DNA of 64,000 nucleotides, taken from the NCBI GenBank assembly GCA_028690665.1, contig JAQVAV010000001.1, positions 124,001 through 188,000 of the forward strand, written 5' to 3'. Shown in pieces: positions 21,008 to 60,485 of this stretch (position 1 is its first letter; each line of letters opens with the position of its first letter). Both the position numbers and the translations under genes were made by a program. Under the pieces are notes generated by a model. The model saw nothing but the letters and a program-made list of their open reading frames with translations. It was not told where the DNA came from and searched no databases. Source of the DNA: Paludibacter sp. GTDB lineage: Bacteria > Bacteroidota > Bacteroidia > Bacteroidales > Paludibacteraceae.

Positions 21008-21074
21008 TTGAAACAAACGAGTAAATTATTTGGACAAATAATGATATAAATTATTTTATAACTATTTTACTTTG
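21008..21074 (+). promoter_or_regulatory. Operator/promoter region of the first susC
   Basis: Two imperfect copies of TTGGAACAAAT lie 21 bp apart: TTGAAACAAAC at 21008-21018 and TTTGGACAAAT at 21029-21039, each matching 9 of 11. The -7-like box TTACTTTG (21067-21074) starts 33 bp after the second ACA, and there is no -33 TTTG at the normal distance. The second copy also lies within a palindrome, ATTATTTG-GA-CAAATAAT (21025-21042). The rest of the 335-bp gap from 20777 holds the divergent TolC promoter. Confidence 0.5.
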
Positions 21075-21111
21075 CATAATGAAAAACAACCGGAAAATTT
21101 AATATATACGT

Positions 21112-24100
21112 ATGATTCTAAAAAAAATTGAATTTCAAGTAAAGCAACTATGCCGGATATGTTTGCTAGTCGGATTTACCTTATATATTCCGGCAAAAGC
21201 AACAGCTCAACTAAAAAATGTAAGCGGTGTGGTTGTAGATGAAACAGGAGAGAGTTTAATAGGTGCCACATTACAGGAGATTGGAACAAATAACTCTACC
21301 GTAACCAACATTGATGGGGCATTTATATTGAAGCTTTCATCTCTCAATCCTGTTTTAGAGATTAGGTATGTTGGATATAAAACAGTACATTATTCTGTAC
21401 AAAGTCCCCGAGTAAAAATCACAATGCAAGTATCGTCTGTATCACTTGAACCTGTTGTAGTAGTTGCGTATGGTACTCAAAAAAAAATTACAGTAACAGG
21501 AGCTATCTCTTCAATTGGTACCGAAGATATCAAAAAAAGTTCTGCGCCAAATATAACAGCAGCAATTGAAGGAAAACTTCCTGGTCTGTCAACAATACAA
21601 ACCAATGGAGCTCCGGGAAAAGATGATGTAACCTTGTTTTTACGTGGAGCAGCCACTTCCAATGACCAAAGTCCATTAATTCTTGTGGATGGTATTCCGC
21701 GGGAGAGTATCCGCGAAATTGATGCTAATGAAGTAGAAACCATAACCGTATTAAAAGATGCAAGTTCTACTGCTGTATTTGGAGTACGGGGAGCCAATGG
21801 AGTAATACTGATAACAACCCGAAGAGGGAAAAAAGGAAAAGTAACAGTTTCTCCTTCGGTATCTTATAGCGTGCAGTCGTTCTCAAGAAATTCTACACGC
21901 CGTAATTCGTGGGAATATGCAAGACTGCTGAACGAGGCTCGTGAAAATGAAGGAGCAGCTGCAGCATTCTCCGATGCAGAAATTGCAAAATTTGATAGTT
22001 GGCGTGACGGTTCGGGGCCTTCCAATGCAAGTGACCGGTATTGGTATCCAAACATCGATTGGCAAAGCATTTATTTTAAAAATTACGCACCCATGGTAAG
22101 GGCTAATGTCGACATTTCGGGTGGTTCTGAAAAATTACAATACTTTATAAATTCAGGTTATATATATCAGGGAGGTATGTATAATACAGAATCGGAATCT
22201 TTGCTCGGGTACGATCCTCAGGCAAAGATGAACCGGTATAATTTCCGTTCCAATATTGACTACTCATTCAATAAAAGAATAAAAGCATCATTCGACTTGT
22301 CAAGTTTTATTGAAAAAGTAAACGGGACAAATGGTATTGAAAGTGCCTTGTGGGCCGATGCCATTACAGCACGTTCCACATCGCCTGGTCCACTTACGGT
22401 AGCCGGATTCAATGTGCGTGAAAGTGGAACCGATTCAGAAGGAAACGTTCTGGTTCATGCAGTCAGAGCAGGTCAGGTTGTTCAGGATCCGACACAAACA
22501 GTACAATCGGGATATGGAAATATGAACCGTAGCGGATATAAACTTGAAACTCGTTCCGGGGTGAATGCCATTAGTACTTTGAATGTAGATCTTGGTTTTC
22601 TTACACAAGGTTTAAGTGCAAAAGGCTTAGTATCATTCGAGTCAAGAGGTAATGATGTTATTTATGCATTAAAAGGATTTGTTACTTATAAATTCGATCG
22701 TAATCCATCTGGTTTGGATGAGCCGGTATATACTTTTGACGGCGATAACGAAGAAGATGACCAATTGAGTTTGGGACGCACTTCAAGCAGCAGTTGGTTT
22801 CTGAATATGCAGGCGCAGTTAAACTACAACCGGACATTTGGAGAGAAACATGCTGTGACTGCAATGGCACTTTTTCAACGTGATATTCGTGAAACCAGCA
22901 GCGGGGATATTCCATATAATATGGTAGGCTTGTCTGTTCGCGGCACTTATGCTTACGACAACCGTTATCTTGGTGAAGTAAACATTGGCTATAACGGAAC
23001 AGAGCAATTTGCTCCGTCTCACAGGTTTGGCTTTTTTCCGGCATTTTCATTGGGCTGGGTTGTATCGAACGAGTCGTTTATGAAAGACTTGACTGACGAT
23101 GGAATACTCTCGAAATTGAAATTAAGAGCTTCTATCGGTAAGGTAGGGAATGATCGTCTTGGTTCAACTCGTTTTTTGTATTTAGATAATATCAGTTACC
23201 ATATTGATGTAAATCATATCCCATCGCTTGGAAATGGAGGAAAAATATCTGAAGTAATGTTAGGAAATAGCGACATACATTGGGAAACAGCCTGGAAGCA
23301 GAACTATGCAATAGACTTTTCACCAATAAAAGACTTGGATTTATCGTTCGATTACTTTATTGAAGACCGAACCGATATTCTTATAACAAGAAACACGGTA
23401 CCTGTTTTATCCGGCTTAACCGGAAGCCAGTTGTCGAGGGTCAACATGGGAGAAATAATAAATAAGGGTTACGAAATTTCACTCGCGTATAAAAAATTTC
23501 TTACAAAGAATATAGGTATCAATGTTTCAGGGAACTTTTCTTATACAAGAAATAAAGTAATTTCAACTGATGAAGCCAAGTTGTCGGAAGATTATACTTA
23601 CAGATATCGTGAGACCGGATATTCCTTAGGACAAAATTGGGGATATGTGATAGACTATTCTAATGGTAACGGATTTTTCAACTCGAAAGAAGATATAGAA
23701 AACAGCGGGTTAACTTATGAAACAGGCGGAGGTACCCCGCTTCCGGGCGATTTTATTTATAAGGATCTCAACGGAGATCATATTATCAATGAAAAAGATA
23801 TGGCTCCGATAAAATACTCCTCCTTAGTACCACGCATTAATTACGGATTGAGCTTGGGGGGATCTTTCTATGGAGCAGACGTCACTGTAATGTTTCAAGG
23901 GGTAGGACAATACTCCAAATATTATTCAGGATGGGGCGTATTCGAAGAAATGGGTTCAAAATACTACTTAGATATTTGCGACAACCGTTGGACTGCAGAA
24001 CGATACGCCAATGGAGAAAAAATCACACATCCCCGTTTGGCTAACTCTGGTTCCACAAGCCACATAGAAAACAGCTATTATATAATGGATGCATCATATA

Positions 24101-24309
24101 TAAGATTAAAAAGGGCTGAGATTGGGTATACGTTCCCAGCTAAAATTATAAAGAAGATGAAAGTAAGTAATATGCGTGTCAGTATTTCCGGAGACAATAT
24201 TTACACATGGACAAAATTACTTACAAAAGCTTTTGATCCTGAACAATCTTCTGTTCTGAATTACCCGCTTATGCGAACTTTTAGTTGTGGACTAAATTTC
24301 AATTTTTAA
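21112..24309 (+). CDS. SusC-like TonB-dependent transporter (first pair)
   Basis: The outer-membrane barrel that imports oligosaccharides with its SusD partner. Order: signal peptide to about residue 33 (ends A-T-A-Q); CarboxypepD_reg-like domain about 36-110 (V-S-G-V-V-V-D-E-T-G-E-S-L-I-G-A-T); SusC signature and plug about 115-240 (V-V-V-A-Y-G-T-Q, L-V-D-G-I-P, A-V-F-G-V-R-G-A-N-G-V-I-L-I-T-T); a long beta-barrel; and a final aromatic strand, L-N-F-N-F. The length of 1065 residues is normal. It is the first gene of a four-gene block C-D-C-D, followed 12 bp later by its SusD. Confidence 0.97.
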   Translation: MILKKIEFQVKQLCRICLLVGFTLYIPAKATAQLKNVSGVVVDETGESLIGATLQEIGTNNSTVTNIDGAFILKLSSLNPVLEIRYVGYKTVHYSVQSPRVKITMQVSSVSLEPVVVVAYGTQKKITVTGAISSIGTEDIKKSSAPNITAAIEGKLPGLSTIQTNGAPGKDDVTLFLRGAATSNDQSPLILVDGIPRESIREIDANEVETITVLKDASSTAVFGVRGANGVILITTRRGKKGKVTVSPSVSYSVQSFSRNSTRRNSWEYARLLNEARENEGAAAAFSDAEIAKFDSWRDGSGPSNASDRYWYPNIDWQSIYFKNYAPMVRANVDISGGSEKLQYFINSGYIYQGGMYNTESESLLGYDPQAKMNRYNFRSNIDYSFNKRIKASFDLSSFIEKVNGTNGIESALWADAITARSTSPGPLTVAGFNVRESGTDSEGNVLVHAVRAGQVVQDPTQTVQSGYGNMNRSGYKLETRSGVNAISTLNVDLGFLTQGLSAKGLVSFESRGNDVIYALKGFVTYKFDRNPSGLDEPVYTFDGDNEEDDQLSLGRTSSSSWFLNMQAQLNYNRTFGEKHAVTAMALFQRDIRETSSGDIPYNMVGLSVRGTYAYDNRYLGEVNIGYNGTEQFAPSHRFGFFPAFSLGWVVSNESFMKDLTDDGILSKLKLRASIGKVGNDRLGSTRFLYLDNISYHIDVNHIPSLGNGGKISEVMLGNSDIHWETAWKQNYAIDFSPIKDLDLSFDYFIEDRTDILITRNTVPVLSGLTGSQLSRVNMGEIINKGYEISLAYKKFLTKNIGINVSGNFSYTRNKVISTDEAKLSEDYTYRYRETGYSLGQNWGYVIDYSNGNGFFNSKEDIENSGLTYETGGGTPLPGDFIYKDLNGDHIINEKDMAPIKYSSLVPRINYGLSLGGSFYGADVTVMFQGVGQYSKYYSGWGVFEEMGSKYYLDICDNRWTAERYANGEKITHPRLANSGSTSHIENSYYIMDASYIRLKRAEIGYTFPAKIIKKMKVSNMRVSISGDNIYTWTKLLTKAFDPEQSSVLNYPLMRTFSCGLNFNF

Positions 24310-24321
24310 ATATTTAAATAC

Positions 24322-26124
24322 ATGAAAAATACATTATTATATACATTGATATCCATTTCAGTCCTGTTGTCGTTGAATTCTTGCAGTAGCGAGATGGATA
24401 TTACTCCTGATGGGCGTTTGACGATGGACGAAGTATTTTCGAATCCGGAATACGTTCCCGCCTATTTCAGTAGTGCATTTGATTGCATACCGTTTAAAAT
24501 GTCATGGTATTTTTGGTTTGATAATCTTCCATCAGCCCTGAGCGATGAATCATGGTCGTGCGATGATGTTGAAGGGACAGGAGCTGTCAATGCGTACAAG
24601 GGACAGGGTAGTGCGAGTGAGAATATATTTGAAACCAATTATAATGATAATTTTGATTCTCAGTACTGGACTAAATATTGGAAATCGATACGAATAATAA
24701 ATGTTTTTCTCCAGCACATACCAACAGCAGCGGTTGACGATGAGGAAGATCGGGTAAGGTGGACTGCCGAGGCTCATGTGTTGCGAGCTTATTATTATTT
24801 ACAGTTGGTAAAATGGTATGGCGCTGTTCCTATTATAACAGAGCCATTGGCCGACGATTTTGACTATTCGACTATGAAAAAGAATACGGCCGTGGAATGC
24901 TTAAAATTCATTGTTGAAGATTGTGAAGTGGGTATGAAATGTGATGAACTGCCCTGGAGGATTGTGAATAGCAGTGAGTTCAGGAGATTGTCCCGTGGAA
25001 TCGCCGCAGCAATACGTTCACAAGCTGCTCTATATGCCGCAAGTCCGCTATATAATGGAGGTGAAGACCTCTGGGAGTATGCTTATGAAAAGAATAAAGA
25101 TTCTTTCGAAAAATTGAAAGAAAACGGCTATGAGCTTTACACTGCAATGCAAACAAGTAATTATTCCTGTGCTTACGGTGAGTATTTTGCCCAAAATGCC
25201 AGTGGAGGAGCAAATCCCGTTGATCGTGAAACAATTTGGGGAAACATTAAGGATAACCATCCAATGTGGTGGGTATGGGGTATGCCTATACAGAGTAATT
25301 ACAGGGCAGGTGATGTTCCTACGCAGGAATTGGTTGATGCCTACGATATGGTAGCTACAGGAAAGCCGGTTTTAAAACTATCACAACCCTATCTTGATGA
25401 AACTCATTTGGATCCGAATTATACTGAAAATTCGGGATATAATCCCAATCGTCCTTACGAAGGAAGAGATCCTCGCTTTTATGCAACTGTAATCTATCAC
25501 GGAGCAAGTATATATGTTGGCAATACCAAATCTACGGTTCAAACATTTTCTGGAGGTAACTGTGAACTTCGCGATGATGACCGCAGATATACACGTACCG
25601 GTTATTATATGAATAAATACCGTAACTGGAATGCTTATTCAGGCTCGCCCGGAGAAGATGGCAAATGGAAATTTTTTCGTTTAGGAGAGGTGTATTTAAA
25701 TTTAGCCGAAGCTGCTGTCGAAGCCGGACATATCGATGAGGGATTGGAATTAGTCAATGAAATCAGGCATCGTGCAGGATTTGATCCAGCTGTAGATGTA
25801 AGCGCAACGACTAAAGATGAGGCACGCCTTATAGTGCACCATGAACGTCAGGTTGAGTTCGCATTTGAAGAACATCGTTTTTTTGATGTGAGAAGATGGA
25901 CAAAGAACGATGTAGATTTGGAAAATGAAAAATTCTGTACCGGTATGAAGGCTATACGTTCAGGTCTTAAAGTGAAATATGAACGTTTTATTGTTGGTTC
26001 TGATGGAACTACTCCGAGTAAATTGTCCTATAAAGCAAAATGGCATTTTTTGCCTATTCCTCTTGATGAAGCATCTTCACTTGAAAACTTAACGGGAATA
26101 AACTGGCAAAATTATGGTTGGTAA
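24322..26124 (+). CDS. SusD-like glycan-binding lipoprotein (first pair)
   Basis: The surface lipoprotein that lids the SusC barrel and binds glycan. The lipobox ends L-N-S-C with Cys21 as acylation site. The SusD/RagB N-terminal motif W-T-A-E-A-H-V-L-R-A-Y-Y-Y is present near residue 152, with the C-terminal family features R-L-G-E-V-Y-L-N-L-A-E-A and R-x-V-E-F-A-F-E-E-H-R-F-F-D-V-R-R-W. The length of 600 residues is typical. It may overlap the next susC by 11 bp if that gene starts at its first ATG. Confidence 0.96.
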   Translation: MKNTLLYTLISISVLLSLNSCSSEMDITPDGRLTMDEVFSNPEYVPAYFSSAFDCIPFKMSWYFWFDNLPSALSDESWSCDDVEGTGAVNAYKGQGSASENIFETNYNDNFDSQYWTKYWKSIRIINVFLQHIPTAAVDDEEDRVRWTAEAHVLRAYYYLQLVKWYGAVPIITEPLADDFDYSTMKKNTAVECLKFIVEDCEVGMKCDELPWRIVNSSEFRRLSRGIAAAIRSQAALYAASPLYNGGEDLWEYAYEKNKDSFEKLKENGYELYTAMQTSNYSCAYGEYFAQNASGGANPVDRETIWGNIKDNHPMWWVWGMPIQSNYRAGDVPTQELVDAYDMVATGKPVLKLSQPYLDETHLDPNYTENSGYNPNRPYEGRDPRFYATVIYHGASIYVGNTKSTVQTFSGGNCELRDDDRRYTRTGYYMNKYRNWNAYSGSPGEDGKWKFFRLGEVYLNLAEAAVEAGHIDEGLELVNEIRHRAGFDPAVDVSATTKDEARLIVHHERQVEFAFEEHRFFDVRRWTKNDVDLENEKFCTGMKAIRSGLKVKYERFIVGSDGTTPSKLSYKAKWHFLPIPLDEASSLENLTGINWQNYGW

Positions 26125-26143
26125 CGGGTCTAAAAAAATGGTT

Positions 26144-29100
26144 ATGAAAAAAATAAGAAAAATAATAATTGTAGTTGCGGCTTGTTTTTTAATTTGTACA
26201 AATGAGGTCGTTGCTCAAACAATTCAATATACAGGCGTTGTTCGCAATAATGAAGGAACACCTCTCTATGGAGCTACTATAAAAATACAGAATTCTCATG
26301 AATATGCGACTACCGATTCCGAAGGGCGGTTCTACATAAACACAGATAAAGTTACCGGCAACATCATTTGTAGCTATATTGGCTATAAGAATAAAATTGT
26401 TCCGTTGAAAGCCGACTCAGACATGACAGTCAGACTTATACCTGATATTTCCTGTAGCGATGAGCTTATGAATGTCTCATTGGATCGTAAGGAATCGCGT
26501 ATTTCTTATACAGGGGCAATAAGTACTGTTAAAAGTGAAGAAATAAAAACATGGCAGTCATCAGGCCTCGTGGAAACTCTTAAAGGAAAACTTGCAGGAT
26601 ATGACAACGGACATATTCGGGGATTGAATTCAATGAATGGAGAAGCTATTTTAATTGTCCTCGACGGAGTGCCAGCCCCTTCTTTGGATTTAAGTTCTAT
26701 TGACCCTGATATCGTCGAATCTGTCAGTATTCTAAAAGATGCAGCAGCAAAAGCTTTATATGGCCCTCTTGGAGCACAAGGTGTAATTTTAGTTACAACT
26801 AAGAAAGGTGTGTCAGGGAAGACTAAGGTCAATGTAAATGCTAATTTTGCATTGCAATCACCTACTGTTATGGCAGATATGCTTAATTCTTATGATTATG
26901 CCGTTTTACGAAACAATGCATTAACTAACGATGGACTTCCCGCCGCTTTTTCCGATGATGAACTTCAAGCATTTGCCAATGGAATTGGAACAGATAATGA
27001 TTGGCGCAAGATGTTTCTGAAAAAAGTACGCAATTCTCAACGATATAACATTGGAATTAACGGAGGAAACGAAAAAGTTCGTTATTATGTAAATGCCGGA
27101 TATGCAAATTTGGATGGAACATACAACGTGGACTGGACTGAAAAATATAATCCGGAGGATTATACGAAGCATTTTACATTGGCATCCAACATTGATGTGG
27201 ATTTATTCAGTTTTATGTCGGCATTCTTGAATACAAATATGCGCTTATACCGCATTAACAATACAGCAGGAGGCGATATTCTGTATAAAATTTACAGCAC
27301 TCCCAATACAGTAGAAGGGCCTTTATCAGAAGATGGCAAGATAATAACCACGGAGAACTTTCCTAACCCGATATACGGTTCGATAAATTATAGCGGAGTA
27401 AACTTAAAAACTTCTACAGATGTAAACACCAAATTTGGAGTAAATCTGGATTTAGGATCTCTCACTAAAGGATTATCGATGAAAGGAATTCTCGGATATG
27501 AGACTTATTATATTGGTACCCGTATCGGTTCATATAATTACACCCGCTATGTAAGGGACGAAACTGGCGATTTAGTTCAATTAGGAACTAATGAAGAAAC
27601 AGCATTGAGTTGGTCGAAAGCCTCTTCAATGATATATTTTATGAATTTTCAGGGAATCATGGAATATAACCGTAATTTTGGAGCAAATTCGGTTGAAGCG
27701 TCATTGAATTACCTCGCTGAAGACAGATTAGGAAATAGCTATAGTTCAAGCTGGTTATTGCCATTTAAACGAATTCAACTTGGCGGACATGCAAAATACG
27801 GTTATGACAATCGTTATTTTCTTCAGTTCGATTTCACTCATGCCGGTTCCGAACAAATGATAAAGGGCAATCAGTTTCATTTTTCACCTACCATATCCGG
27901 AGCCTGGGTTGTTTCGAACGAAGATTTCATGAAAGATATGGATTTTATAGACTTATTAAAATTCAGAGGGTCATTCGGAGCTCTCGAATATGATAATTTA
28001 TGGAACTTCTCAAGTCGTTATTTGTACGCCAATGATGTCAGAGAGGCAGAGGGATCCGGATTGATAAACAGCATATTCACGTGTGCCCTTGTAACAGAAG
28101 GAAATTTAGGAAATTCGGAAATTGAATGGGAGAAATCATATCAGCAAAATTATGGTGTGGACTTAACTCTACTAAACGCAGTTAATCTGTCTGTCGATTA
28201 CTGGAGAACAAACCAGAGAGGAGTACTTTGCCAAAGTGAATTGACTCCCGAGTTAAGTGGTTTTTCTTCTTCTGCATTGCCGTATGAAAATGTTGGTAAA
28301 ATATTAAATCAGGGCATAGACATTGAAACAAGCTATAATAAAAATTTGAATAGTGGTCTTGGAATCACGGTATCCGGTGATTTTTCATGGAACAAAAACA
28401 AGATTATTGATGCAGATGATCTTAATTATTCCGATCTCGGGTATTATTATCCTTATCGTAAAACGGGATATAGTATCGGCCAGGTTTTCGGATATTTGAT
28501 AGATTACTCCAATGGTAATGGATATTTTAATAGTGGAGAGGAAATAACGGAAAGTGGTCTTACATACCAGGGCACAGCACCTCGTGTAGGTGATTTTATA
28601 TACAAAGATCTTAATAATGACGGTTTAATAGACGAACGTGATAAAGCGCCGCTTGATGGAGTGAAAACCATGCCTAATATAATGGCAGGTGCTTCGGTGA
28701 AATTGACGTACAAGAACTTCGACTTGTATGTTCAGTTACAGGGAGAAGCCGGACGCAATGCTGTTTACAGTGGTCTTGGAGTATATGAAAATATAGAGCA
28801 GGGTGTATATCTTGAGATGCACAAACATGCTTGGACTTCAGAACGTTATACTGCCGGTGAAGAAATAGATTATCCGGCTTTAACATCCACCACTTCATCG
28901 AGTTTGACAGCGAACAGTTTTTTTGTATCAAAGGCGGATTATTTGCGGCTTAAAAACGTTACTTTCGGATATTCTTTGCCTAAAAAAATCGTTGATAAAA
29001 TGAAGATAGACCAGTTTCGTTTCTATGTTACGGGACAAAATCTTCTAACAATGACTGACCTTAAATTTAAGGGATTTGATCCTGAATGTTCAAATATAAA

Positions 29101-29149
29101 TTCATTTGTATACAGAATGTTTAACTTGGGACTGAACATTAACTTTTAA
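26144..29149 (+). CDS. SusC-like TonB-dependent transporter (second pair)
   Basis: A second import barrel in the same operon. Three ATGs are in frame (26114, 26138, 26144); 26144 is chosen because it gives M-K-K-I-R-K-I-I-I-V-V and a standard signal peptide ending V-V-A-Q. The CarboxypepD_reg-like domain (T-G-V-V-R-N-N-E-G-T-P-L-Y-G-A-T) and the plug (I-V-L-D-G-V-P, A-L-Y-G-P-L-G-A-Q-G-V-I-L-V-T-T) are present, but the segment between them is diverged and lacks the clear V-V-V-A-Y-G-T signature. The last strand is L-N-I-N-F. It is clearly different from the first SusC, so the pairs probably take different fragments. Confidence 0.95.
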   Translation: MKKIRKIIIVVAACFLICTNEVVAQTIQYTGVVRNNEGTPLYGATIKIQNSHEYATTDSEGRFYINTDKVTGNIICSYIGYKNKIVPLKADSDMTVRLIPDISCSDELMNVSLDRKESRISYTGAISTVKSEEIKTWQSSGLVETLKGKLAGYDNGHIRGLNSMNGEAILIVLDGVPAPSLDLSSIDPDIVESVSILKDAAAKALYGPLGAQGVILVTTKKGVSGKTKVNVNANFALQSPTVMADMLNSYDYAVLRNNALTNDGLPAAFSDDELQAFANGIGTDNDWRKMFLKKVRNSQRYNIGINGGNEKVRYYVNAGYANLDGTYNVDWTEKYNPEDYTKHFTLASNIDVDLFSFMSAFLNTNMRLYRINNTAGGDILYKIYSTPNTVEGPLSEDGKIITTENFPNPIYGSINYSGVNLKTSTDVNTKFGVNLDLGSLTKGLSMKGILGYETYYIGTRIGSYNYTRYVRDETGDLVQLGTNEETALSWSKASSMIYFMNFQGIMEYNRNFGANSVEASLNYLAEDRLGNSYSSSWLLPFKRIQLGGHAKYGYDNRYFLQFDFTHAGSEQMIKGNQFHFSPTISGAWVVSNEDFMKDMDFIDLLKFRGSFGALEYDNLWNFSSRYLYANDVREAEGSGLINSIFTCALVTEGNLGNSEIEWEKSYQQNYGVDLTLLNAVNLSVDYWRTNQRGVLCQSELTPELSGFSSSALPYENVGKILNQGIDIETSYNKNLNSGLGITVSGDFSWNKNKIIDADDLNYSDLGYYYPYRKTGYSIGQVFGYLIDYSNGNGYFNSGEEITESGLTYQGTAPRVGDFIYKDLNNDGLIDERDKAPLDGVKTMPNIMAGASVKLTYKNFDLYVQLQGEAGRNAVYSGLGVYENIEQGVYLEMHKHAWTSERYTAGEEIDYPALTSTTSSSLTANSFFVSKADYLRLKNVTFGYSLPKKIVDKMKIDQFRFYVTGQNLLTMTDLKFKGFDPECSNINSFVYRMFNLGLNINF

Positions 29150-29163
29150 AAAAACAGAACGAA

Positions 29164-33327: not shown

Positions 33328-33394
33328 TTGGAACAAAAGCAAAAAAGAATGGAACATTCCAGAAAGACAGAAATAAACCGATTAGCTACTTTTG
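33328..33394 (+). promoter_or_regulatory. Operator/promoter of the first duplicated carbohydrate-binding gene
   Basis: The direct repeat TGGAACA lies at 33329-33335 and 33350-33356, exactly 21 bp apart. The -7 box TACTTTTG (33387-33394) starts 33 bp after the second ACA. There is no -33 TTTG, as expected if an activator bound at about -45 replaces it. The same arrangement is conserved upstream of the paralogue at 35604-35670. Confidence 0.6.
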
Positions 33395-33435
33395 ACTATC
33401 AATTCAATTGAAAAAATCATTTAAAATTAAAAAAA

Positions 33436-35603: not shown

Positions 35604-35670
35604 TTGGAACAAATACCATAAAAAATGGAACATTACAGAAAGACCGAAATAAACCTATTGGCTACTTTTG
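35604..35670 (+). promoter_or_regulatory. Operator/promoter of the second duplicated carbohydrate-binding gene
   Basis: TGGAACA at 35605-35611 and again at 35626-35632, 21 bp apart, with TACTTTTG at 35663-35670 starting 33 bp after the second ACA. The arrangement and much of the intervening sequence match copy 1 (33328-33394), while neighbouring non-coding DNA has diverged. Confidence 0.6.
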
Positions 35671-47208: not shown

Positions 47209-47282
47209 TATTTAATCTTTTTGTATTTCCAAAATTGTACTGACTTTTGTCTATATCAGCTCTCTCATTAAACAAACACGCG

Positions 47283-48065: not shown

Positions 48066-48092
48066 ATTATTTTATCTGTTAATTTTGTTTTT

Positions 48093-49640: not shown

Positions 49641-49737
49641 TTTTAAAATAATATCTGTTTTCTAATCAATTATCCAGATTATCAACATTGCTTTTAATAA
49701 AAACTTTTTTTTAGTTATTTCTTTTAAGTCAGGGCGT

Positions 49738-52269: not shown

Positions 52270-52295
52270 TGAAATTAATGTGTTTTGATGTTACT

Positions 52296-55103
52296 TCAAT
52301 TTTCTATCTTAAACTTATAATTACCTTGCGGCACAGTTACCACATAATAACCGTCTTTTATTTCTGAAAATTTTACAATATCCGAATCTTTAATTGGAGC
52401 ATTGTTTTCTGTTACAGCTGAATCAACATTTTTTATCGGAATATGTATTGTTGCGGTACTACCAACAGGAACTGTTACATTCATTTCCAGATTATTACCA
52501 GATTGTTTGATTTCAGAAACGACTTTTCCGTAAGGTGTAACGCTTGAATAATAAACTTCGGGTAACTGTTTGTTCAGGATTGGTTTTATGATAATGTGTT
52601 TAAAACCGGGCTGATTTATATCAACGTTTACTCCGGCAAGAATCCGATAAAACCAGGTCAACCCTCCTCCAAACATTGGATGATTATGAGAGTCTCTTCC
52701 GTCCCATTGTTCCCAGGTTACAGTAGCTCCTTGTTTTATCCAGTTCCCGAAACTAGGGAAATCTTCCTGATTCATAGCAGCATAAGCAATATCATTAAGT
52801 CCGTTTTGCGCCAATGTTTCGAAAAGAAATTGAGTTCCGAAAATACCTGTATTCAAGTGGTTGTTATATTTTACTGAAATTTCGTTTTTCAATGTTGCCA
52901 CTACATCATTGTATCTGTCGGACGGAACCCCTAAAACCAAAGCATAAACATTACTACCAAAATCGCCATAAGATTTTAGCTGAGGGTTATAAAATTTCTT
53001 ATTAAAAGCCCGTTTTACTTTTTCGGCAATGGATGCATAATAGTCGGCATCGCTCTGTAAATTCATTACCCGGGCCGCTTTTGCTGTAAAATCAGCGCAA
53101 CGCCACAAATAAAATGTGTGAACGAGTTCCTCGGATGGAATGCTGAATGCCGGAGCCCAATCGCCCAAGTTAAGCCAATAGTTGGGTTGGGTTGAATTGA
53201 GATTTGCACGCTGTGCAAGCATAGTACCGTCAGGAGTTAACCATGTCAGCATATAACGAACCTGCTCTTTCATGGCATAATAATTATCCGCAATCATTTT
53301 TCTGTCGCCATAGTGTAGGTAAAACTCCCATGGCATAATGTTCATGGCTGCTCCCCATGGAACACCACCACCACAGCCCGGTTGCCAGGGTGCCCCGTTA
53401 GGTACGTACCCGGTTTCAACATTCTGAGCATTTCTGATATCACGGATCCATTTTTGATAAAAGGCAGCGGCATCGAAGTTGTACATAACAGTTGTGCAAG
53501 CCACTTGTCCATCGCCTGTATATGGTGAACGTTCGCGATGTGGGCAATCACTGGCTATGCAGCCATGCATATTGTCAGTCTGGCTTTGTTGCCATATCTG
53601 GTTTATTTTGTTGAATAATTCGTTAGATGTTTTGAATTCAGCATTCAATTTGACATCTGTATTAACAGCCTCTGCTGTTATGTTTTTAACTGAAAGATTT
53701 TTCACACCCGAAATAATGGCTTTGCTGAAAACATACCATGTGAACCTTGGTGCATAACTTTCTTTTCCCGTTCCTTTAAAAATGTATTTATATACTCCAA
53801 GCGGCGATTCGCAGATATACTTGACATTTAACGTGTCGCCTTTGTTGCCCTGAATGTCTTTGAAGTGAAGCCATCCTGAAATTTCTTTGGCAAATTCAAC
53901 TTCATAAGTTCCATCTTCGAGTTTTTTGAGCGATGTGGGTTTCAGCACTTCTGTAATTTTGTCTGTGGGAGATGTGTTGGCCGTGAGTTTTCCTTCAGGA
54001 GCTTTTCGGTATGTGGCATTACTCCAGTCAGAATCATTGTATTCTGTACTGCCCCAATCTTTGATTTCTTTGTTGGCATCGTAAACTTCTCCATCAAAAA
54101 CGCCATCGAGCACAATAGGTGATTCTGTCACTTTCCAAGTGTCGTCTGTGCAGATTAGTTCTTTTGAATGGTCGGCATAGGTTACTTCTATCTGACATAA
54201 AAAACGGGGAGAACCAAATGGGCAAACCCAGCTTGTAGAGCAATCGTAAAACCCATTTCCTAAAATTGCTCCAGCAACATTCTCTGTTCCTTTGAGCATA
54301 TTTGTTATATCATAAGCCAGATACATGACCCGATAGTCACGAAATTTGTTATCGATAGAAATTCCGTAGTTTTTGATGTCGTCACGAACTGTATAATCTG
54401 TGAAGTTAGGAACCAAATAATCATCTCCAACTTTTTTACCATTCATATAAAATTCAAAGTACCCCAAACCCGTTACAAAAGCCTTGGCTGAGACAACATT
54501 ATCTTTTAATTTGAAGGTTTTACGAAAGAGTGGTGCTGCATAATGTCTTTGTTCATATTGATCCGGACTAAGCACTTTTATGGGAGCTTCACCCTGCCAG
54601 GGGGTTCCAATCCATTGAGCTTTCCATTCGTCAGTGTTTAGTAAACCCATGCCCCAAAATGCAGGAGAACTCCAAGAAGATGCTTTTCCCTGATTGTCCC
54701 AAACCATAACACGCCACCAATAATTCTGCCCCGATTGTAACTGATTTCCATTGTAACTTATAAGGCGTGATTCTGAAGACATTTGTTTTCCACTGTCCCA
54801 TGCGTCATAATTTTCTTTTTGTAGTTTTTCTTTGGATGTTGACACCACAATACGGTATGCTTGTTGCGAAAGTCCACGGTCGCGACTTGAATTTACTTCG
54901 TTAATCCATGAGAGTCGTGGCGATAACGCATCAACAACAGTCGGATTATCCAGGTACTCACATCTCAGAGAACCCGGAGTTATTTTTCCGGAAGCTGACA
55001 CGCTCATATAAACAAATATCAATATTCCGAGATAAAATATTTTGCGTTTTATTGTACAATAGCTTTGAGCAAATAAAGATCTGAATATATTAATGATCAT
55101 CAT
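52296..55103 (-). CDS. Alpha-L-rhamnosidase (GH78)
   Basis: Hydrolyses terminal alpha-L-rhamnose. The 935-residue protein shows the full GH78 order: N-terminal Fn3-like domain (L-R-C-E-Y-L-D-N-P ... P-R-L-S-W, about 45-150), the rhamnosidase N-domain (about 175-345, A-F-V-T-G-L-G-Y-F-E-F-Y-M-N-G), a concanavalin-like domain, the (alpha/alpha)6 catalytic barrel from about 510 (C-P-H-R-E-R-S-P-Y-T-G-D-G-Q, with W-E-Q-W-D-G later), and a C-terminal beta domain (P-L-L-like I-K-P-I-L). The start codon lies directly after the stop of the upstream gene, so translation is coupled. The signal peptide is preceded by a 20-residue polar stretch, so a later start is possible. Confidence 0.92.
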   Translation of the reverse strand: MMIINIFRSLFAQSYCTIKRKIFYLGILIFVYMSVSASGKITPGSLRCEYLDNPTVVDALSPRLSWINEVNSSRDRGLSQQAYRIVVSTSKEKLQKENYDAWDSGKQMSSESRLISYNGNQLQSGQNYWWRVMVWDNQGKASSWSSPAFWGMGLLNTDEWKAQWIGTPWQGEAPIKVLSPDQYEQRHYAAPLFRKTFKLKDNVVSAKAFVTGLGYFEFYMNGKKVGDDYLVPNFTDYTVRDDIKNYGISIDNKFRDYRVMYLAYDITNMLKGTENVAGAILGNGFYDCSTSWVCPFGSPRFLCQIEVTYADHSKELICTDDTWKVTESPIVLDGVFDGEVYDANKEIKDWGSTEYNDSDWSNATYRKAPEGKLTANTSPTDKITEVLKPTSLKKLEDGTYEVEFAKEISGWLHFKDIQGNKGDTLNVKYICESPLGVYKYIFKGTGKESYAPRFTWYVFSKAIISGVKNLSVKNITAEAVNTDVKLNAEFKTSNELFNKINQIWQQSQTDNMHGCIASDCPHRERSPYTGDGQVACTTVMYNFDAAAFYQKWIRDIRNAQNVETGYVPNGAPWQPGCGGGVPWGAAMNIMPWEFYLHYGDRKMIADNYYAMKEQVRYMLTWLTPDGTMLAQRANLNSTQPNYWLNLGDWAPAFSIPSEELVHTFYLWRCADFTAKAARVMNLQSDADYYASIAEKVKRAFNKKFYNPQLKSYGDFGSNVYALVLGVPSDRYNDVVATLKNEISVKYNNHLNTGIFGTQFLFETLAQNGLNDIAYAAMNQEDFPSFGNWIKQGATVTWEQWDGRDSHNHPMFGGGLTWFYRILAGVNVDINQPGFKHIIIKPILNKQLPEVYYSSVTPYGKVVSEIKQSGNNLEMNVTVPVGSTATIHIPIKNVDSAVTENNAPIKDSDIVKFSEIKDGYYVVTVPQGNYKFKIEN

Positions 55104-56777
55104 TTAATTTTTAAATAATAAAGATATTTCTTTTCGACTAGGTTCTATTCTGAAAACTTTGCCGGAAGTATCTTTGCAATCGATAAAAGAACCACCTCTA
55201 CAAGAAACCTTATAATCGAAAGATTTCTCCTGAGCATTTATCGTTGATTTTGTGATTTCAGTAAAAGGTAATTTAGCTTCTGATGCAACAGACATTTCCA
55301 AGTACCATTTTAGTTTTAGCTGATCTTTTGAAATACATTTCATGCTCACTTTATCCTGATCGAAAGTCATTATAAACGATGAGTTTGGTATTTCCAAAGG
55401 CCATTCTACCAAGAGTCGTTTGCCTTTTTGGCTGATTTTGGGTGTTCCCCCTTTAGCTTCAACCATTTTCCCGTTTTTATCAGCATAGTACAGACGAAGT
55501 CCGGCTAATTGTTGGTCTGTGCTCCAAACATTTCCATCAATAAAAGGTAATGTCATAAAAGTACAATTTGGAGTTGTGCATACATTCTCAATATAATTAG
55601 ATGCAAAATTTTCGTTGAACAAATGAACATCTCTGAATCTGAATAAATTTTTCTCCCAAAGTAAATTTGCCCGGTAGTATTTGCTGTTGTACCAAACTGT
55701 TTTTTTATCGTTACTTGTATAATCTGTTAGTGCGCTTATGGCGGTTGGAGGAGTCATGGAGAAATTATCTTTATACCATTTCCCTGTTTCAGATAAAGTT
55801 TCAATGCGAATTTGTCCTTCTTTCTGTAATTCAGCAAGTAAAGGCATTTGCATTTCCAACCCTTTTTTCATAGGGCCCCAAGTAAATGAGTTTTCCTGTC
55901 CGGCTTGTGTGTACGAGAATGTCATGCAAGGATCTTTGAACATAGAGTTGAAAAACCATTTTACCCATTCTTCAGAACCACCAGCATTACCATATACAGG
56001 TTCCAATGTAATTACACCTTGATGATTTCCACCTATACCTAAATCGTATTGGTATATAGGGTCGCTACCTAACATACGAAATACTGGAACCTGAATTTGT
56101 TCACTTTTTGTTTGAGCCGGCATATATACATTTTTTTTGCTAGGATAGTATCCTTGTCCCCAATATCCACCCCACATGGTATATCCATCAGTTCCAATCT
56201 GATCCCGACAGTTTGCTGATGCAACTATATTGTATTTATCGTGCATATAAGCCAAAGTGTGGGCATCGATAAACCAGCATGCAATTGCTGTGGGATATTT
56301 TCCAAAAATCTCTTTGAATTTTTCCATGTACACATCTACCAGTTTTTCCCTCTCTTTCGGAGTATAAGCAATGGAAAAACCAACGTTGGCATGCCAGTCC
56401 CATGGATATTGTCCACGCCATTTTATTCCGGCGGCTTCAACCTGAGGCTGAGTTATTTCCCACCAACCCCCAATTTCGGTTCCGGGTAAAACATCGTTTT
56501 TTAATAGTTTTTGATATGATGGTGATATCAGAGCATCGTATTGCAATAAATAGGTTCCTTTTATGCCATACTTGTTCAATAGTTTTACTTCCTCAACAAC
56601 TGTTTGATACAAAACCTCATCTGTTATAGCATCAATACGTGGTTCTGTTTGTCGAATGAAATTGACTACATTGACAATTCTGGGAGCAGATTCCCCTTTG
56701 TCTTTTGCATTTGTTTCTATACTGAAAAATATAAAAATGAAGATCAGAATATATAGTTTCTTCAATAATGTTGTCAT
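55104..56777 (-). CDS. Exported protein with polysaccharide deacetylase/glycoside hydrolase-like (beta/alpha) fold
   Basis: A 557-residue protein with a signal peptide (ends E-T-N-A). The first 330 residues look like a beta/alpha barrel of the glycoside hydrolase/deacetylase (NodB or GH38/57-like) superfamily: V-N-F-I-R-Q-T-E-P-R, K-Y-G-I-K-G-T-Y-L-L-Q-Y-D-A-L, E-I-G-G-W-W-E, D-W-H-A-N-V-G-F and A-C-W-F-I-D-A-H-T. Several His and Asp residues in these blocks could bind metal. Residues about 370-557 are a beta-rich domain. I cannot name a family with certainty. Its place between GH37 and GH78 genes, with tight spacing, points to a role in debranching or deacetylating the same glycan. Confidence 0.6.
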   Translation of the reverse strand: MTTLLKKLYILIFIFIFFSIETNAKDKGESAPRIVNVVNFIRQTEPRIDAITDEVLYQTVVEEVKLLNKYGIKGTYLLQYDALISPSYQKLLKNDVLPGTEIGGWWEITQPQVEAAGIKWRGQYPWDWHANVGFSIAYTPKEREKLVDVYMEKFKEIFGKYPTAIACWFIDAHTLAYMHDKYNIVASANCRDQIGTDGYTMWGGYWGQGYYPSKKNVYMPAQTKSEQIQVPVFRMLGSDPIYQYDLGIGGNHQGVITLEPVYGNAGGSEEWVKWFFNSMFKDPCMTFSYTQAGQENSFTWGPMKKGLEMQMPLLAELQKEGQIRIETLSETGKWYKDNFSMTPPTAISALTDYTSNDKKTVWYNSKYYRANLLWEKNLFRFRDVHLFNENFASNYIENVCTTPNCTFMTLPFIDGNVWSTDQQLAGLRLYYADKNGKMVEAKGGTPKISQKGKRLLVEWPLEIPNSSFIMTFDQDKVSMKCISKDQLKLKWYLEMSVASEAKLPFTEITKSTINAQEKSFDYKVSCRGGSFIDCKDTSGKVFRIEPSRKEISLLFKN

Positions 56778-56829
56778 AAAATGGATATTAAATAATTTGT
56801 AAATACAGTCATTTATAAGTTGTTATATT

Positions 56830-58128
56830 TCATCTATTATAACAGTAGTCAAATGCATATATATACACTCCGGCGGTCCAGCCCATAAAAGCGCCGGGCA
56901 TTCTATATTCGTCTTTCACGTCAATATCTCCACTGACTGCGTTATATTTTTCCCATAAATTTCCGGTTTTTTTATAAATGCCGGCCATACTCTGAACGTA
57001 CTTTTCAGCCAGTCTAAAAGCCGCTTTTTTATAACCATAATTATCTAAGCCTTTTATTACAAGATAATTAAGCGGAGCCCAGCCGTTCGGATAATCCCAT
57101 TGGTAGGTGCGGTTACGTTCCTTATATTCGCAAGTTGCCACGCCATTGGCACATTCAAGTCTGTTCAGATTACGATATATGATTTTTGCCTGTTTTTTAG
57201 AGGCTAACTTGACAAACAAAGTATTGAATACGGCCGCTGAAAATACTGAAGAGCGACGGTTGCGAACATAGTCATAATCATAAAAAAGCTTGTCTTCGGG
57301 ATTCAGACACAACTTATTCATCAATGCTTTACGTTGGGATGCAATTTTGAGCCACTTGCCAGCTCCTTTACTACCTGTTTCACGATAGAAATAGGCAAAA
57401 TTCTGTTCATATCCGTAAAGATTAGCATTCAAATCCACCGGGTTGAAATCTTCACATCTTGAATCAAAACGCGGGTTAAAATCCCAGCCTGACTCTGCTT
57501 CGGCAAGCAAATGTGATGCAAGGGTTAAACGTTCTTCATCGTTATGATAATCGTTTGGATTTAAGCCGAGCCGTCCAACCACATAATTGTAGAATGACAT
57601 TAAATCTGCTTTGTCTGCATTATTGGAATATCTATTGAGTCCTGAAGAAGTTATGCGCTTGGTCATCCAGAAATGATATTCCTTTTCAAGAATTTTGCAG
57701 GCATGCGCTAACCAAGTTTTATCGTGTGTCGCTTCATACACTTCCCTCACCATCATGCTTGCATACGGAGGTTGCGATCTGTTCAACATTCCTTTATTGC
57801 TCGCGTTGGGCATATATCCGAATTTGTCAATTAAGGACAGAATGTTATCTATATTGTTTTTTGCTTGTTCAATGTTTCCATCCAGCAAAAGGCCTACATT
57901 AGTAAAGTAAGTATCCCAGTAAAATAAATTCTGAAAACCATTGACAATACAAGGCACACTAAATGGATATGGCAAGGCTATATTCCCTAAAGTATCTTTT
58001 TGACATACACGAACTGTTTTAGGCATATCTCTGTCGATATATGCTTTAAGTTCTTTTGCATCGGATGATATTTGCGCTGTAACTGATTGAACGCAAATTA
58101 GTAATAATATGTAAATGAAGTTCCGCAT
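56830..58128 (-). CDS. Trehalase-like glycoside hydrolase (GH37)
   Basis: An exported 432-residue enzyme. Signal peptide ends S-V-T-A-Q. GH37 motifs are visible: L-F-Y-W-D-T-Y-F (signature 1), Q-P-P-Y, S-G-W-D-F-N-P-R-F (with the candidate acid Asp), Q-W-D-Y-P-N-G-W-A-P (signature 2) and L-W-E-K-Y-N-A near the C-terminus. The length is shorter than classical trehalases (about 540), mainly because the N-terminal lead is short. It should cleave alpha,alpha-trehalose or a related alpha-glucoside in the periplasm. It lies 52 bp before the deacetylase-fold gene and 29 bp after the GH3 remnant. Confidence 0.85.
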   Translation of the reverse strand: MRNFIYILLLICVQSVTAQISSDAKELKAYIDRDMPKTVRVCQKDTLGNIALPYPFSVPCIVNGFQNLFYWDTYFTNVGLLLDGNIEQAKNNIDNILSLIDKFGYMPNASNKGMLNRSQPPYASMMVREVYEATHDKTWLAHACKILEKEYHFWMTKRITSSGLNRYSNNADKADLMSFYNYVVGRLGLNPNDYHNDEERLTLASHLLAEAESGWDFNPRFDSRCEDFNPVDLNANLYGYEQNFAYFYRETGSKGAGKWLKIASQRKALMNKLCLNPEDKLFYDYDYVRNRRSSVFSAAVFNTLFVKLASKKQAKIIYRNLNRLECANGVATCEYKERNRTYQWDYPNGWAPLNYLVIKGLDNYGYKKAAFRLAEKYVQSMAGIYKKTGNLWEKYNAVSGDIDVKDEYRMPGAFMGWTAGVYIYAFDYCYNR

Positions 58129-58157
58129 TAAAATTTATACAATTTATGGCACTGTCA

Positions 58158-58628
58158 TTATTTTTCCCAATTAACTGAGAGTTTTTGCAAATATTTTGAA
58201 TTTGGCCCCACAAAAATATTGAAATCACCAGTTTCCCAATCATGTTTTAACGCTTGATTGTAGAACTTCAGTTTTTCTGTTGTTATTTTGAATTTCAGCG
58301 TTTTTGTTTCGTTGGGAATAAACTCAACTTTTGCAAAATCTTTTAGTTCCATAACTGGTCGTGAAATGGAAGCAGCCGGATCTCCTATATAAAGCTGAAC
58401 AATTTCCTTTTTTTATCGCTTCATCCAATCCTATTGCGCTACCAACTATTTTAGGATTTCCTACACCTCCAAGATTTAATTGTCCTATTTTTTTTGCAGA
58501 GTCATCCGTTTCATCAGAGAATTGCTGAAACTATTCATCTGCTTATCGTTCGTCGATTGTGCTAAAGAACAATGTAACGGGATGAGAACATAAAGAATAT
58601 ATTTTCGTTTTATTTTCAATAAATACAT
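58158..58628 (-). pseudogene. Decayed GH3 beta-glucosidase with internal deletion and frameshift
   Basis: Two ends of one GH3 enzyme remain. From ATG 58628 the minus strand encodes a signal peptide and the GH3 start D-K-Q-M-N-S-F-S-N-S-L-M-K-R-M-T-L-Q-K-K, then a stop at 58485-58487 within a run of eight A. With one more A the frame continues I-G-Q-L-N-L-G-G-V-G-N, as in intact GH3 proteins, to I-K-K-G. There it jumps directly to the C-terminal Fn3-like domain: E-I-V-Q-L-Y-I-G-D-P, S-I-S-R-P-V-M-E-L-K-D-F, ending at 58158. Only about 155 of a usual 740 or so residues are left and the catalytic domains are gone. It still sits in the operon, 29-31 bp from both neighbours. Confidence 0.85.
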
Positions 58629-58659
58629 TTTAAATTACTATTCAAAATTTGTGAGAGAC

Positions 58660-60387
58660 TCAGTCCATGACTATTTTAACTTTATCCGGAGCCTTAACCT
58701 CACTCACAACTTTGCCCTTATCATTTTTAGTACAGCTTATGGAAACAACACCATAAGGAGTTGGGAATGTTCCTTTTACAGATTTCAATGAACCAAGATT
58801 AGGTTTGATTCTGAGAGTACGACATCCTGGTTCAACCGGAGTTACACCTAAAACATGCTTGGTAAGCCACGAAGTAGGACCTGATGCCCAGCCGTGACAA
58901 AGGCTAAGTCTCAAGCCTTTGTAGCAATATGCGCCGCCGCCTGAGTGTATATCGTAATTGCTTTCTGGAACTATTTCGTCAATACGTCCGGCATTAACGA
59001 CATCTGAATACTTTAAATCTTCCCAGAATGTTGTTGCTCCAAGATCCAGCATAGCACCCCAGTATTTCGAAATAAAATCAAGAGCTTCATCATATTTTCC
59101 GTTCTGAGCAAGAGCTTCCAGCATATAATAGCCATAAAACGTTGAAAAACCATTCAGTCCATTTTTCAATATTATATTACAATCTTGTTTGGAATTTTTG
59201 CTTAGTCCTGATAAAATATTTAACGCTGCTGCCTGACTGTTATTAAACGAATCTATATGCACATTTCTCATCCGACGGACACAGTTGGAAGCAATACTTT
59301 GAATCGAGTCATCCTGCAGGTATTCACCAATTTGAAGTGCCGCATTTACGGCCATAAAAGAAAGCGATTGCAAGCCACTGTGTATAACATCGTTGTTTTC
59401 GGATGTTGGCCAATCAAGGAAACGAGTTCCATCGAGTTGTTCAACGCCATTTTTATCAATTTTCTCATCAATCTGTTTGACTAGCTTAAGCAGGTATTCG
59501 CGTTGATTTTTCAAATAATCAAGATTTCCCTGATACATGTACAAATCTCTTTGTATGATTATCCACCAAAGGGAATAAGAACACATTCCATTCATCCAAC
59601 CAGGCAGAGGAGTGTCTTTTCGGGCAAAATCGAGGCTTTTATATACAACTTCATTTTCTCCGAATACACTATTGATTGTCATAACTTCAGGGTGCATATC
59701 CCCGACCCACACCAAGCGGTCTCGTTTTATACCATCCCAGATATATTCCTGCATATTGAGCTTGACCGTATAGGCTCCTGTTTCCCATATTTTATTAATT
59801 CGCTCATTGTCAGAAAAGAATGAGCCCTTTTCTTGGACATCTCTCAAAATAGAAGTTGCAGATACATTACGTAAATTATATTGTAAATTTTTATCAAGTA
59901 AATCTATTCTGACAAATCTGAAGCCGCTATTTCCACATTGAAAAGAGCCAAGCCATGGAACCGAAATGACAAAATCTCTTAAAGAATGTTCGTTAGTGGG
60001 ATTTGCCGGATTATCCAAAATATCTATATCCGACATTGCTTCTGTTACAGACTCGCCAAACCGGATTCTTAATCTGACCGGATTTTTATATTCTCTGATG
60101 GCCGAAGAAATTTTTATTCCACCATAAATTTCTTTTCCGAAGTCCAGTAGTATTGATGCCTGCTGAGTATCAGAACTCATAAATCCCGTATATTTGTCAT
60201 CTGATACAGATAACTGGTCGCTGAAATCAGCCAGCAAATTATTGGGGTTTGTCACATACTTTCCGGACTCATCTGACATCCAAACAATTCTGACCGGAGA
60301 TATATTGGTGTACGTAATTTTCGCATAGACATTGAGTGCAAACAAACTGAACAGTGTAGCTAGTGTCAGTACATGGCGTTTCATCAT
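58660..60387 (-). CDS. Alpha-L-rhamnosidase-like glycoside hydrolase (GH78-like), short form
   Basis: A 575-residue exported enzyme and first gene of the leftward operon. The signal peptide ends V-Y-A. A beta domain (about 25-185, L-D-F-G-K-E-I-Y-G-G and R-I-R-F-G-E-S) precedes an (alpha/alpha)6 barrel with W-D-G-I-K-R-D-R-L-V-W-V-G-D-M, F-L-D-W-P-T, F-W-E-D and C-H-G-W-A-S-G-P-T. The C-terminal beta domain reads L-R-I-K-P-N-L-G. It lacks the N-terminal Fn3-like and extra sandwich domains of the 935-residue GH78 in the same operon. It fits the GH78-like group, but activity on rhamnose is not certain. Confidence 0.78.
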   Translation of the reverse strand: MMKRHVLTLATLFSLFALNVYAKITYTNISPVRIVWMSDESGKYVTNPNNLLADFSDQLSVSDDKYTGFMSSDTQQASILLDFGKEIYGGIKISSAIREYKNPVRLRIRFGESVTEAMSDIDILDNPANPTNEHSLRDFVISVPWLGSFQCGNSGFRFVRIDLLDKNLQYNLRNVSATSILRDVQEKGSFFSDNERINKIWETGAYTVKLNMQEYIWDGIKRDRLVWVGDMHPEVMTINSVFGENEVVYKSLDFARKDTPLPGWMNGMCSYSLWWIIIQRDLYMYQGNLDYLKNQREYLLKLVKQIDEKIDKNGVEQLDGTRFLDWPTSENNDVIHSGLQSLSFMAVNAALQIGEYLQDDSIQSIASNCVRRMRNVHIDSFNNSQAAALNILSGLSKNSKQDCNIILKNGLNGFSTFYGYYMLEALAQNGKYDEALDFISKYWGAMLDLGATTFWEDLKYSDVVNAGRIDEIVPESNYDIHSGGGAYCYKGLRLSLCHGWASGPTSWLTKHVLGVTPVEPGCRTLRIKPNLGSLKSVKGTFPTPYGVVSISCTKNDKGKVVSEVKAPDKVKIVMD

Positions 60388-60417
60388 AAATCATTTTTTT
60401 AGTTATTTTGCAGTATG

Positions 60418-60485
60418 CAATTTTAGCTAATTTTCCGCCATGCATCATTTCGCATTTGTTCTAAGTTGTACTGCATTTATTCCAA
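60418..60485 (-). promoter_or_regulatory. Operator/promoter of the leftward glycoside hydrolase operon
   Basis: Read on the minus strand, TTGGAATAAAT (60475-60485) and TTAGAACAAAT (60454-60464) form a direct repeat with 21-bp spacing, each followed by GC. The -7-like TAAAATTG (60418-60425) begins 34 bp after the second ACA, leaving a leader of about 25 nt to ATG 60387. The arrangement matches the operators of the rightward arm. Confidence 0.58.

Follow-up and report, generated by a model that had tools for sequence, protein, structure and literature searches.

The window, meaning here the whole stretch of 64,000 nucleotides that was analysed, holds susC and susD genes, a long leftward gene run and a hybrid two-component regulator whose gene continues past the window end, and pairs of direct repeats precede several of these genes. 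The features are the following, in window positions unless a contig position is given:

21008..21074, plus strand: predicted operator-promoter A, before susC1 (21112); units at 21008 (TTGAAACAAAC) and 21029 (TTTGGACAAAT), box TTACTTTG at 21067-21074
21112..30909, plus strand: susC1, susD1, susC2 and susD2, presumed to be under A
33328..33394, plus strand: predicted operator-promoter B, before the gene at 33436; units at 33328 and 33349, box TACTTTTG at 33387-33394
35604..35670, plus strand: predicted operator-promoter C, before the gene at 35713; units at 35604 and 35625, box TACTTTTG at 35663-35670
45223..60387, minus strand: leftward gene run, presumed to be under D
60418..60527, minus strand: predicted operator-promoter D; unit starts 60527, 60506, 60485 and 60464, box TAAAATTG at 60425-60418
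60552..60584, plus strand: ordinary promoter of the regulator gene itself; TTTG at 60552-60555, 21 bp, TAATTTTG at 60577-60584
60688..64000, plus strand: hybrid two-component regulator of 1348 aa, whose gene extends beyond the window (G000:C2:184688-188734 in full)
G000:C2:188844-188912 (window-equivalent 64844-64912): predicted site E, between the regulator gene and a GH106 gene that follows it

The susC and susD genes have orthologs of 71-81% identity in both of the related loci considered below. The leftward run encodes GH78-like, GH37/trehalase-like, unknown, GH78, T9SS-tailed and GH20 proteins and two glucosamine-isomerase proteins. The duplicated genes behind B and C had been called carbohydrate-binding in the initial annotation, a label for which Pfam and NCBIfam give no support, and a PDB search with protein C yielded no significant match (best E 0.62). 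C is a copy of the B promoter, and since the upstream DNA is alike and the encoded proteins are 73% identical, B and C are not independent. The regulator consists of a propeller sensor, Y_Y_Y, HisKA, HATPase_c, a receiver and an AraC-type HTH, with HisKA, HATPase_c, Response_reg and HTH_18 exceeding the cut-off.

At each of A, B, C and D two 11-bp units near TTGGAACAAAT are spaced exactly 21 bp apart, and the positions and the spacing first given for the four sites are all correct. Summed over both units, the mismatches to TTGGAACAAAT amount to 4 for A, 5 for B, 4 for C and 2 for D, so that A as well as the second units of B and C (ATGGAACATTC/A) have to be regarded as degenerate. The formula TTRGAAYAAAT-N10-TTRGAAYAAAT, earlier meant for all four sites, fits D and does not fit A, B and C; as it matches D alone among them, it was dropped as search pattern. 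The distance from the start of the second ACA to the start of the -7 box is 33, 33, 33 and 34 bp for A to D, as had been reported. This box has the full TAnnTTTG form at B, C and E and is imperfect at A (TTACTTTG) and D (TAAAATTG). The primary-sigma promoter of Bacteroidota is given as TTTG / TAnnTTTG (PMC7366714). A -33 TTTG, sought in the stretch from the second unit to the box, is absent at all five sites, including the four for which the initial annotation had described its absence, and from this we infer an activator-dependent promoter form. The sensor gene does have the normal -33 TTTG ascribed to it, in the arrangement TTTG-N21-TAATTTTG. Ahead of the GH37 gene, a weak candidate at 58191 was rejected, its 6 mismatches being chance level. 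Site E had escaped the initial annotation and was located by the motif 844 bp beyond the window end, having played no part in building that motif; its units are 21 bp apart and its box lies 35 bp from the second ACA start.

How far is the motif confined to this locus? With up to 3 mismatches allowed, the 4.05-Mb genome contains four matches, three of them within the locus (two overlapping in one array), and the reversed pattern none at the same threshold. The remaining match lies beside dnaJ and has no box at the right distance, and with this exception the genome-wide scan confines the motif to the locus, the outcome that the initial annotation had set as a test. A model of all five sites scores these, its training set, at 43-55 bits; the other 23 of the 28 matches listed do not exceed 14 bits (E 0.28), and with 150 of 3794 first-look candidates scored nothing in the 4.05-Mb genome off the five sites is comparable to the weakest of them (43 bits vs 14 for the next best match). 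When each site was left out in turn and scored on its two units alone across 105 kb (209,938 positions), E ranked 2, C 5, D 6 and A 6, with solely other sites and the array copy above them. Held-out A stood barely above the best unrelated position (17.2 vs 16.4), and B ranked 7, under one unrelated position (18.8 vs 17.8 for B); the units of B alone are not clear of background. In addition, lag 21 was the best among lags 12-44 (33 lags, 8 promoters), and none of 100 shuffles equalled it.

An orthologous regulator was found in two genomes (71% and 66%), one of them C. secundus and the other a MAG. As the initial annotation implied, the 21-bp repeats are kept in both orthologous loci found, though in C. 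secundus only with a shifted core, which reads GAGACA where the window species has GGAACA. The orthologous susC promoter carries 21-bp repeats and a box at 33-34 in all three species, and the leftward promoter D likewise has its box at 33-34 in all three. The window consensus with up to 5 mismatches finds one match in the C. secundus stretch, away from the susC and D promoters; the sites of this species appear with the consensus TTGAGACAAAT, itself drawn from the C. secundus D promoter. The susC site of the MAG has 6 mismatches, which is chance level if position and box are ignored. Genes B and C have just one C. secundus relative (L008:40391), and this relative lacks a site. Moreover, C. secundus has the GH3-GH37-GH78-GH20 run inverted and with its own site, and GH106 behind D. 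As fifth base of the unit, the window species and the MAG together have G in 1 of 18 units and C. secundus has it in 7 of 8 (Fisher p 9e-5, units of one species not being independent). This base and the regulator HTH differ together between species, in a comparison of two regulators only, as the MAG contig stops before the HTH; the 19 matches in the MAG genome did not yield the missing C-terminal half of its regulator (38% at most among the matches listed). This species-linked unit base differing together with the regulator HTH is new here. Nearer relatives were covered by 100 genomes (own, 47 of the genus, 12 of the family and 40 of the order) with up to 6 candidates scored per genome, and as none of the matches listed exceeded 36% identity over the aligned part, the own regulator aside, an ortholog is likely absent from them.

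Among 52 loci of other family members with 211 upstream regions, repeats were found in 29 regions at lag 21 and 25 at lag 22 vs 4-16 at 18 other lags, a count into which stretches between divergent genes enter twice, at every lag. A TAnnTTTG 28-42 bp after the start of unit 2 accompanies 6 of 29 repeats at lag 21, 0 of 25 at lag 22 and 4 of 167 at the 18 other lags, and the box rule is therefore supported at lag 21 only. Runs of three units (at least 28/33) in these 52 loci occur in 5 and 7 regions at lags 21 and 22 vs 0-3 elsewhere; runs of four (at least 34/44) occur in 2 and 3 regions at these lags and in 0-3 at other lags, and hence are not enriched.

At D, two units (60506, 60527) add to those described initially, and D and both orthologous promoters alike have four phased units, with 0 of 1000 shuffles as good for each array. 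Such a conserved four-copy site at one promoter is unusual, and the four phased units are new here. The array might serve two promoters, in that one pair of units would activate the leftward operon and the outer pair would regulate the divergent sensor gene (autoregulation), a dual role that is compatible with the main operator explanation and that we consider rather doubtful. It would suit the location of the array between leftward operon and sensor gene in all three species and the 25 bp that separate its outer end at 60527 from the sensor promoter TTTG at 60552. However, all four units are oriented to the leftward operon in one common phase, and within the window the sensor gene is preceded by an ordinary promoter, for which no strict match is recognisable within 260 bp in either orthologous locus. 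A bolder reading, which we regard as rather unlikely, is that the D array could be a cooperative switch of two dimers, a one-faced row of four with a threshold unlike that of the two-unit promoters, which may also set the sensor level, and that the paired shift of base 5 and HTH could be a natural change of specificity.

How might the regulator act on these sites? The motif very probably labels five promoters that belong to a single locus for glycan degradation, and its repeats are highly likely to be the operator for the hybrid two-component regulator whose gene lies at 60688, as first proposed; near-confinement to the locus, recurrence in both orthologous loci, the HisKA, HATPase, receiver and AraC-type HTH domains and the enrichment of 21-22-bp repeats next to other members of the family support this assignment. 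In the mechanism that we infer, the periplasmic propeller domain would bind a target-glycan oligosaccharide, the kinase would phosphorylate the receiver fused to it, and the AraC-type DNA-binding domains would pair as a dimer and bind the two direct 11-bp units, one subunit each, on one face of the helix. The gene-proximal unit ends just upstream of the expected position of a -33 TTTG, and since a -7 box is present and the -33 box is missing, we propose that the regulator, once bound, would substitute for the -33 contact. In this manner it could switch on five promoters spanning both arms of the locus.

Alternatively, another AraC-type regulator, be it a paralogous hybrid or a separate protein, may bind the repeats and the 60688 regulator may control something else. 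At least five more members of this regulator family are present in the genome (six matches, six candidates scored), and the motif was assigned from position and co-occurrence, both of which would accommodate such a swap. Strong sites, however, are found solely around the 60688 regulator and around its ortholog in the two other species, and one of the four paralog loci of the own genome (C11, gene at L150:9115) carries a 21-bp repeat different from the motif of this locus, with its box at the equal distance of 33 bp after an ACA-like core, all of which renders a different regulator improbable. Chance similarity within A+T-rich promoter DNA would be in keeping with the shortness of the units, some of them degenerate, with the weakness of B and with the one off-locus match at up to 3 mismatches in each of the three genomes; inspection by eye of those in C. 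secundus (L103) and the MAG (L104) gave a helicase-like gene and no evident glycan enzyme. Yet the fifth site, the held-out ranks, the shuffles for lag 21 and for each array and the recurrence in three species refute chance for the site set as a whole, though not for B by itself, and we give this explanation next to no weight.

As operator of the 60688 regulator, the repeats constitute a well-supported new example of a known switch type. The AraC operator araI1-I2 of E. coli comprises a direct pair of half-sites with a spacing of 21 bp, and the half-site closer to the promoter borders on the -35 region. The present sites resemble it in the 21-bp direct half-sites and the promoter-adjacent placement of the near one; unlike here, the E. 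coli AraC system has no sensor-kinase fusion and a sigma-70 promoter, and the likeness noted is one of geometry. For hybrid two-component regulators, direct repeats about 21 bp apart are already published: in the accessible part of that work, the predicted HTCS operators of Bacteroides thetaiotaomicron belong, like here, to AraC-type hybrid regulators beside susC/susD and have a mean unit distance of 21 bp (here 21 bp at five of five sites), their motifs vary from one regulator to the next and are similar where the regulators are related, and regulons are mostly local (Ravcheev et al., 2013, PMC3878776). These operators differ from the present locus in organism and motif, and the -7 box distance, the missing -33 box and the four-unit array are features of this locus not found in that part of the paper. 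The present locus combines a hybrid regulator with AraC-type HTH, a direct repeat of about 21 bp, confinement to the regulon and sites that precede susC/susD and glycan genes in the neighbourhood of the regulator and are kept beside its orthologs, apart from the B/C relative in C. secundus. Moreover, BT4124 and BT4663, hybrid regulators of the same kind, gel-shift with the susCD promoters of their own loci, bt4114 and bt4662 (PMC11253607); a unit structure of their operators was not found, and 'direct repeat' and 'tandem' occur 0 times in the main text.

One sensor thus gets a testable regulon of five promoters with nearly fixed geometry, which offers a promoter series of two versus four units and of good versus degenerate units, and this locus and C. 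secundus supply regulator and operator variants that form a natural pair. That the distance between near unit and -7 box hardly varies at promoters without a -33 box suggests a simple route of activation at an unusual Bacteroidota promoter, and this geometry may aid the search for operators of uncharacterised hybrid regulators.

The paired motif copies 21 bp apart that the initial annotation reported at four promoters of the locus were recovered at all four, by direct reading and by scanning, as two 11-bp units each (mismatches are to TTGGAACAAAT over both units):

Site A, 21008, before susC1, 4 mismatches
Site B, 33328, before the gene at 33436, 5 mismatches
Site C, 35604, before the gene at 35713, 4 mismatches
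Site D, 60485, minus strand, before the leftward run, 2 mismatches
33436-35112 and 35713-37374, duplicated proteins downstream of B and C, 73% identical, family without database match
G000:C2:184688-188734, hybrid two-component regulator with AraC-type HTH, beginning at window 60688

The promoter architecture described with them was likewise borne out: the TAnnTTTG-like -7 box begins 33, 33, 33 and 34 bp past the start of the second ACA (A, B, C and D), TTTG is absent between near unit and box at all four places, and the ordinary promoter ascribed to the regulator gene is present (TTTG-N21-TAATTTTG). The observation is right, and the repeats are a well-supported candidate operator of the regulator at 60688. 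Because B and C duplicate a single promoter, the four places amount to three independent cases.

How specific is the repeat? At a tolerance of 3 mismatches, the paired motif has four matches in the whole 4.05-Mb genome, two of them overlapping at D, and the reversed pattern has 0. The expected confinement of matches to the locus held for three of the four, at D and at a fifth site, E; the other lies beside dnaJ and has no box at the right distance. Site E, at contig position 188844 and outside the stretch covered by the initial annotation, comes after the stop codon of the regulator and lies upstream of a GH106 alpha-L-rhamnosidase gene; its box, TATCTTTG, begins 35 bp past the point where the second ACA starts. 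Built from the five sites, a sequence model by construction scores 43-55 bits on them; of the 28 matches listed, the other 23 reach at most 14 bits (E value 0.28), 150 of the 3794 first-look candidates having been scored. When each site was left out in turn and the units alone were scored over 105 kb (209,938 positions), the held-out sites ranked 2 (E), 5 (C), 6 (A and D) and 7 (B). Everything that outranked E, C, A and D was another site or the 60506 copy in the array; B was outscored by one unrelated position, and for A the next unrelated position was only narrowly lower. Across eight promoters from three species, the best self-match among distances between unit starts (lags) of 12-44 is at lag 21 (8.88 of 11 versus 7.09, sd 0.34, in shuffles; 0 of 100 shuffles as good).

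Regulator orthologs were found in two of 64 loci, in Coprobacter secundus (L008, 71% identity) and in an uncultured Bacteroides MAG (L009, 66%), whose contig stops before the HTH of the regulator; elsewhere among the 64, identity is 37% or less. Both loci share susC1, susD1, susC2, susD2, GH99-like, GH78, the unknown gene 55104, GH37 and GH78-like (67-81% identity), and C. secundus additionally has GH20 and, behind D, GH106. The GH65 gene, 39843, 42518 and two glucosamine-isomerase genes had no match at an E value of 1e-10 within the compared stretches of both loci. The repeat is kept before susC1 in both, with a TTACTTTG box: the units are AAGAGACAAAT/ATTAGACAAAA in C. secundus (box at 34) and AAGAAACAAAT/TTAGCACAAAG in the MAG (6 mismatches, box at 33, read by eye). 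It is absent before the single C. secundus relative of the B and C genes, which has no site in about 150 bp upstream. The C. secundus GH3-GH37-GH78-GH20 run, opposite in orientation to that of the window, carries a site, CTGAAACAAAT/ATGAGACATAT, with box TACTTTTG at 34. The listed ORF start, L008:15116, falls within this site, so translation must really begin farther downstream; alignment of the MAG protein starts only at residue 50. The C. secundus sites are detectable only with that species' own core, GAGACA (GGAACA in the window species), taken from its D promoter; the window consensus at up to 5 mismatches found one match in the C. secundus stretch, at none of the site-bearing promoters, and the whole-genome pattern search in C. 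secundus found 0 in the orthologous locus.

Between the GH37-like gene and the GH78-like one, a 532-bp gap (window 58128-58660) contains fragments that match the GH3 gene of C. secundus at residues 46-127 and 715-797 (two main pieces, 77% and 72% identity); full-length GH3 relatives stand in both orthologous loci, and the remnant is, to judge from these alignments, a decayed GH3 gene. Among 99 further relatives, of which 47 belong to the same genus, no regulator ortholog was seen (identities at most 36% among the matches listed), and this patchiness, with 71% in C. secundus and none seen in near relatives, hints that the regulator may have been acquired by horizontal transfer. The enzyme set (21112-64000 and L005:8944-12165), with GH78, GH106, GH20, GH65, GH37-like, weak GH99-like and glucosamine-isomerase proteins, suggests a glycan containing rhamnose and N-acetylhexosamine as candidate substrate. 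Protein C (35713-37374) has a weak T9SS tail, and AEDY...GSWLEYTFDV in the duplicated proteins, itself without database match, we take to be reminiscent of CBM6-type modules.

Four phased units stand at D (60527, 60506, 60485 and 60464), as they do at the orthologous D promoters of both other species. Mismatches over the four total 8 in each of the three species (to TTGGAACAAAT, or to TTGAGACAAAT for C. secundus), a fit matched by 0 of 1000 shuffles in each, and a fifth unit fits poorly in all three (15-17 mismatches). Judged by their own majority, with no preset motif, the runs score 37, 36 and 37 of 44, and the near unit stays 33-34 bp from the box.

Other family members were surveyed at 52 loci (48 outside the Paludibacter sp. 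genome and 4 in it) with 211 upstream regions; some of the loci come from strains of the same species, and a stretch flanked by divergent genes counts double. Repeats matching at 9 or more of 11 positions occur in 29 of the 211 regions at lag 21 and in 25 at lag 22, versus 4-16 at 18 other lags (14-33). Of the lag-21 cases, 6 of 29 have a strict TAnnTTTG 28-42 bp downstream of the second unit's start; for lag 22 the figure is 0 of 25, and for the remaining lags together 4 of 167. At lags 21 and 22 there is mild enrichment of three-unit runs and none of four-unit runs; of the 211 regions, only one (L017:7369-8268, lag 22) has a four-unit run that reaches at least 36 of 44 at either lag. At the neighbour of a paralogous regulator on contig C11 (L150:9115-10353), GAGACATTAAA/GAGATAATAAA stand 21 bp apart with TACTTTTG 33 bp past the core; the geometry is that of the window sites and the motif is different.

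G occupies unit base 5 in 7 of 8 C. secundus units, 1 of 12 in the window and 0 of 6 in the MAG (Fisher p 9e-5; 2e-4 without C). The C-terminal regions of the window and C. secundus regulators are 76% alike over 160 residues, and differences in the HTH region include T to A in SRTNFYRK and I/SS to T/NL in GFGIQSHFSSSF, residues which, by analogy with the AraC family, we presume to lie in the recognition helices. Comparison of these two regulators offers a lead that regulator and operator may have changed together.

For B. thetaiotaomicron, PMC3878776 gives direct repeats predicted for 16 of 36 such regulators at a mean distance of 21 bp; gel shifts for two such hybrid regulators are described in PMC11253607, and the Bacteroidota promoter consensus is that of PMC7366714. 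PMC12125979 has no bearing on the question. Among the open-licence papers listed by searches on hybrid regulators, no title or abstract opening indicates the box distance or four-unit arrays, which is no proof of novelty. The operator type is already known; the present example is new and unusually complete, and the parts that merit bench work are the array of four units and the base change paired with the HTH differences.
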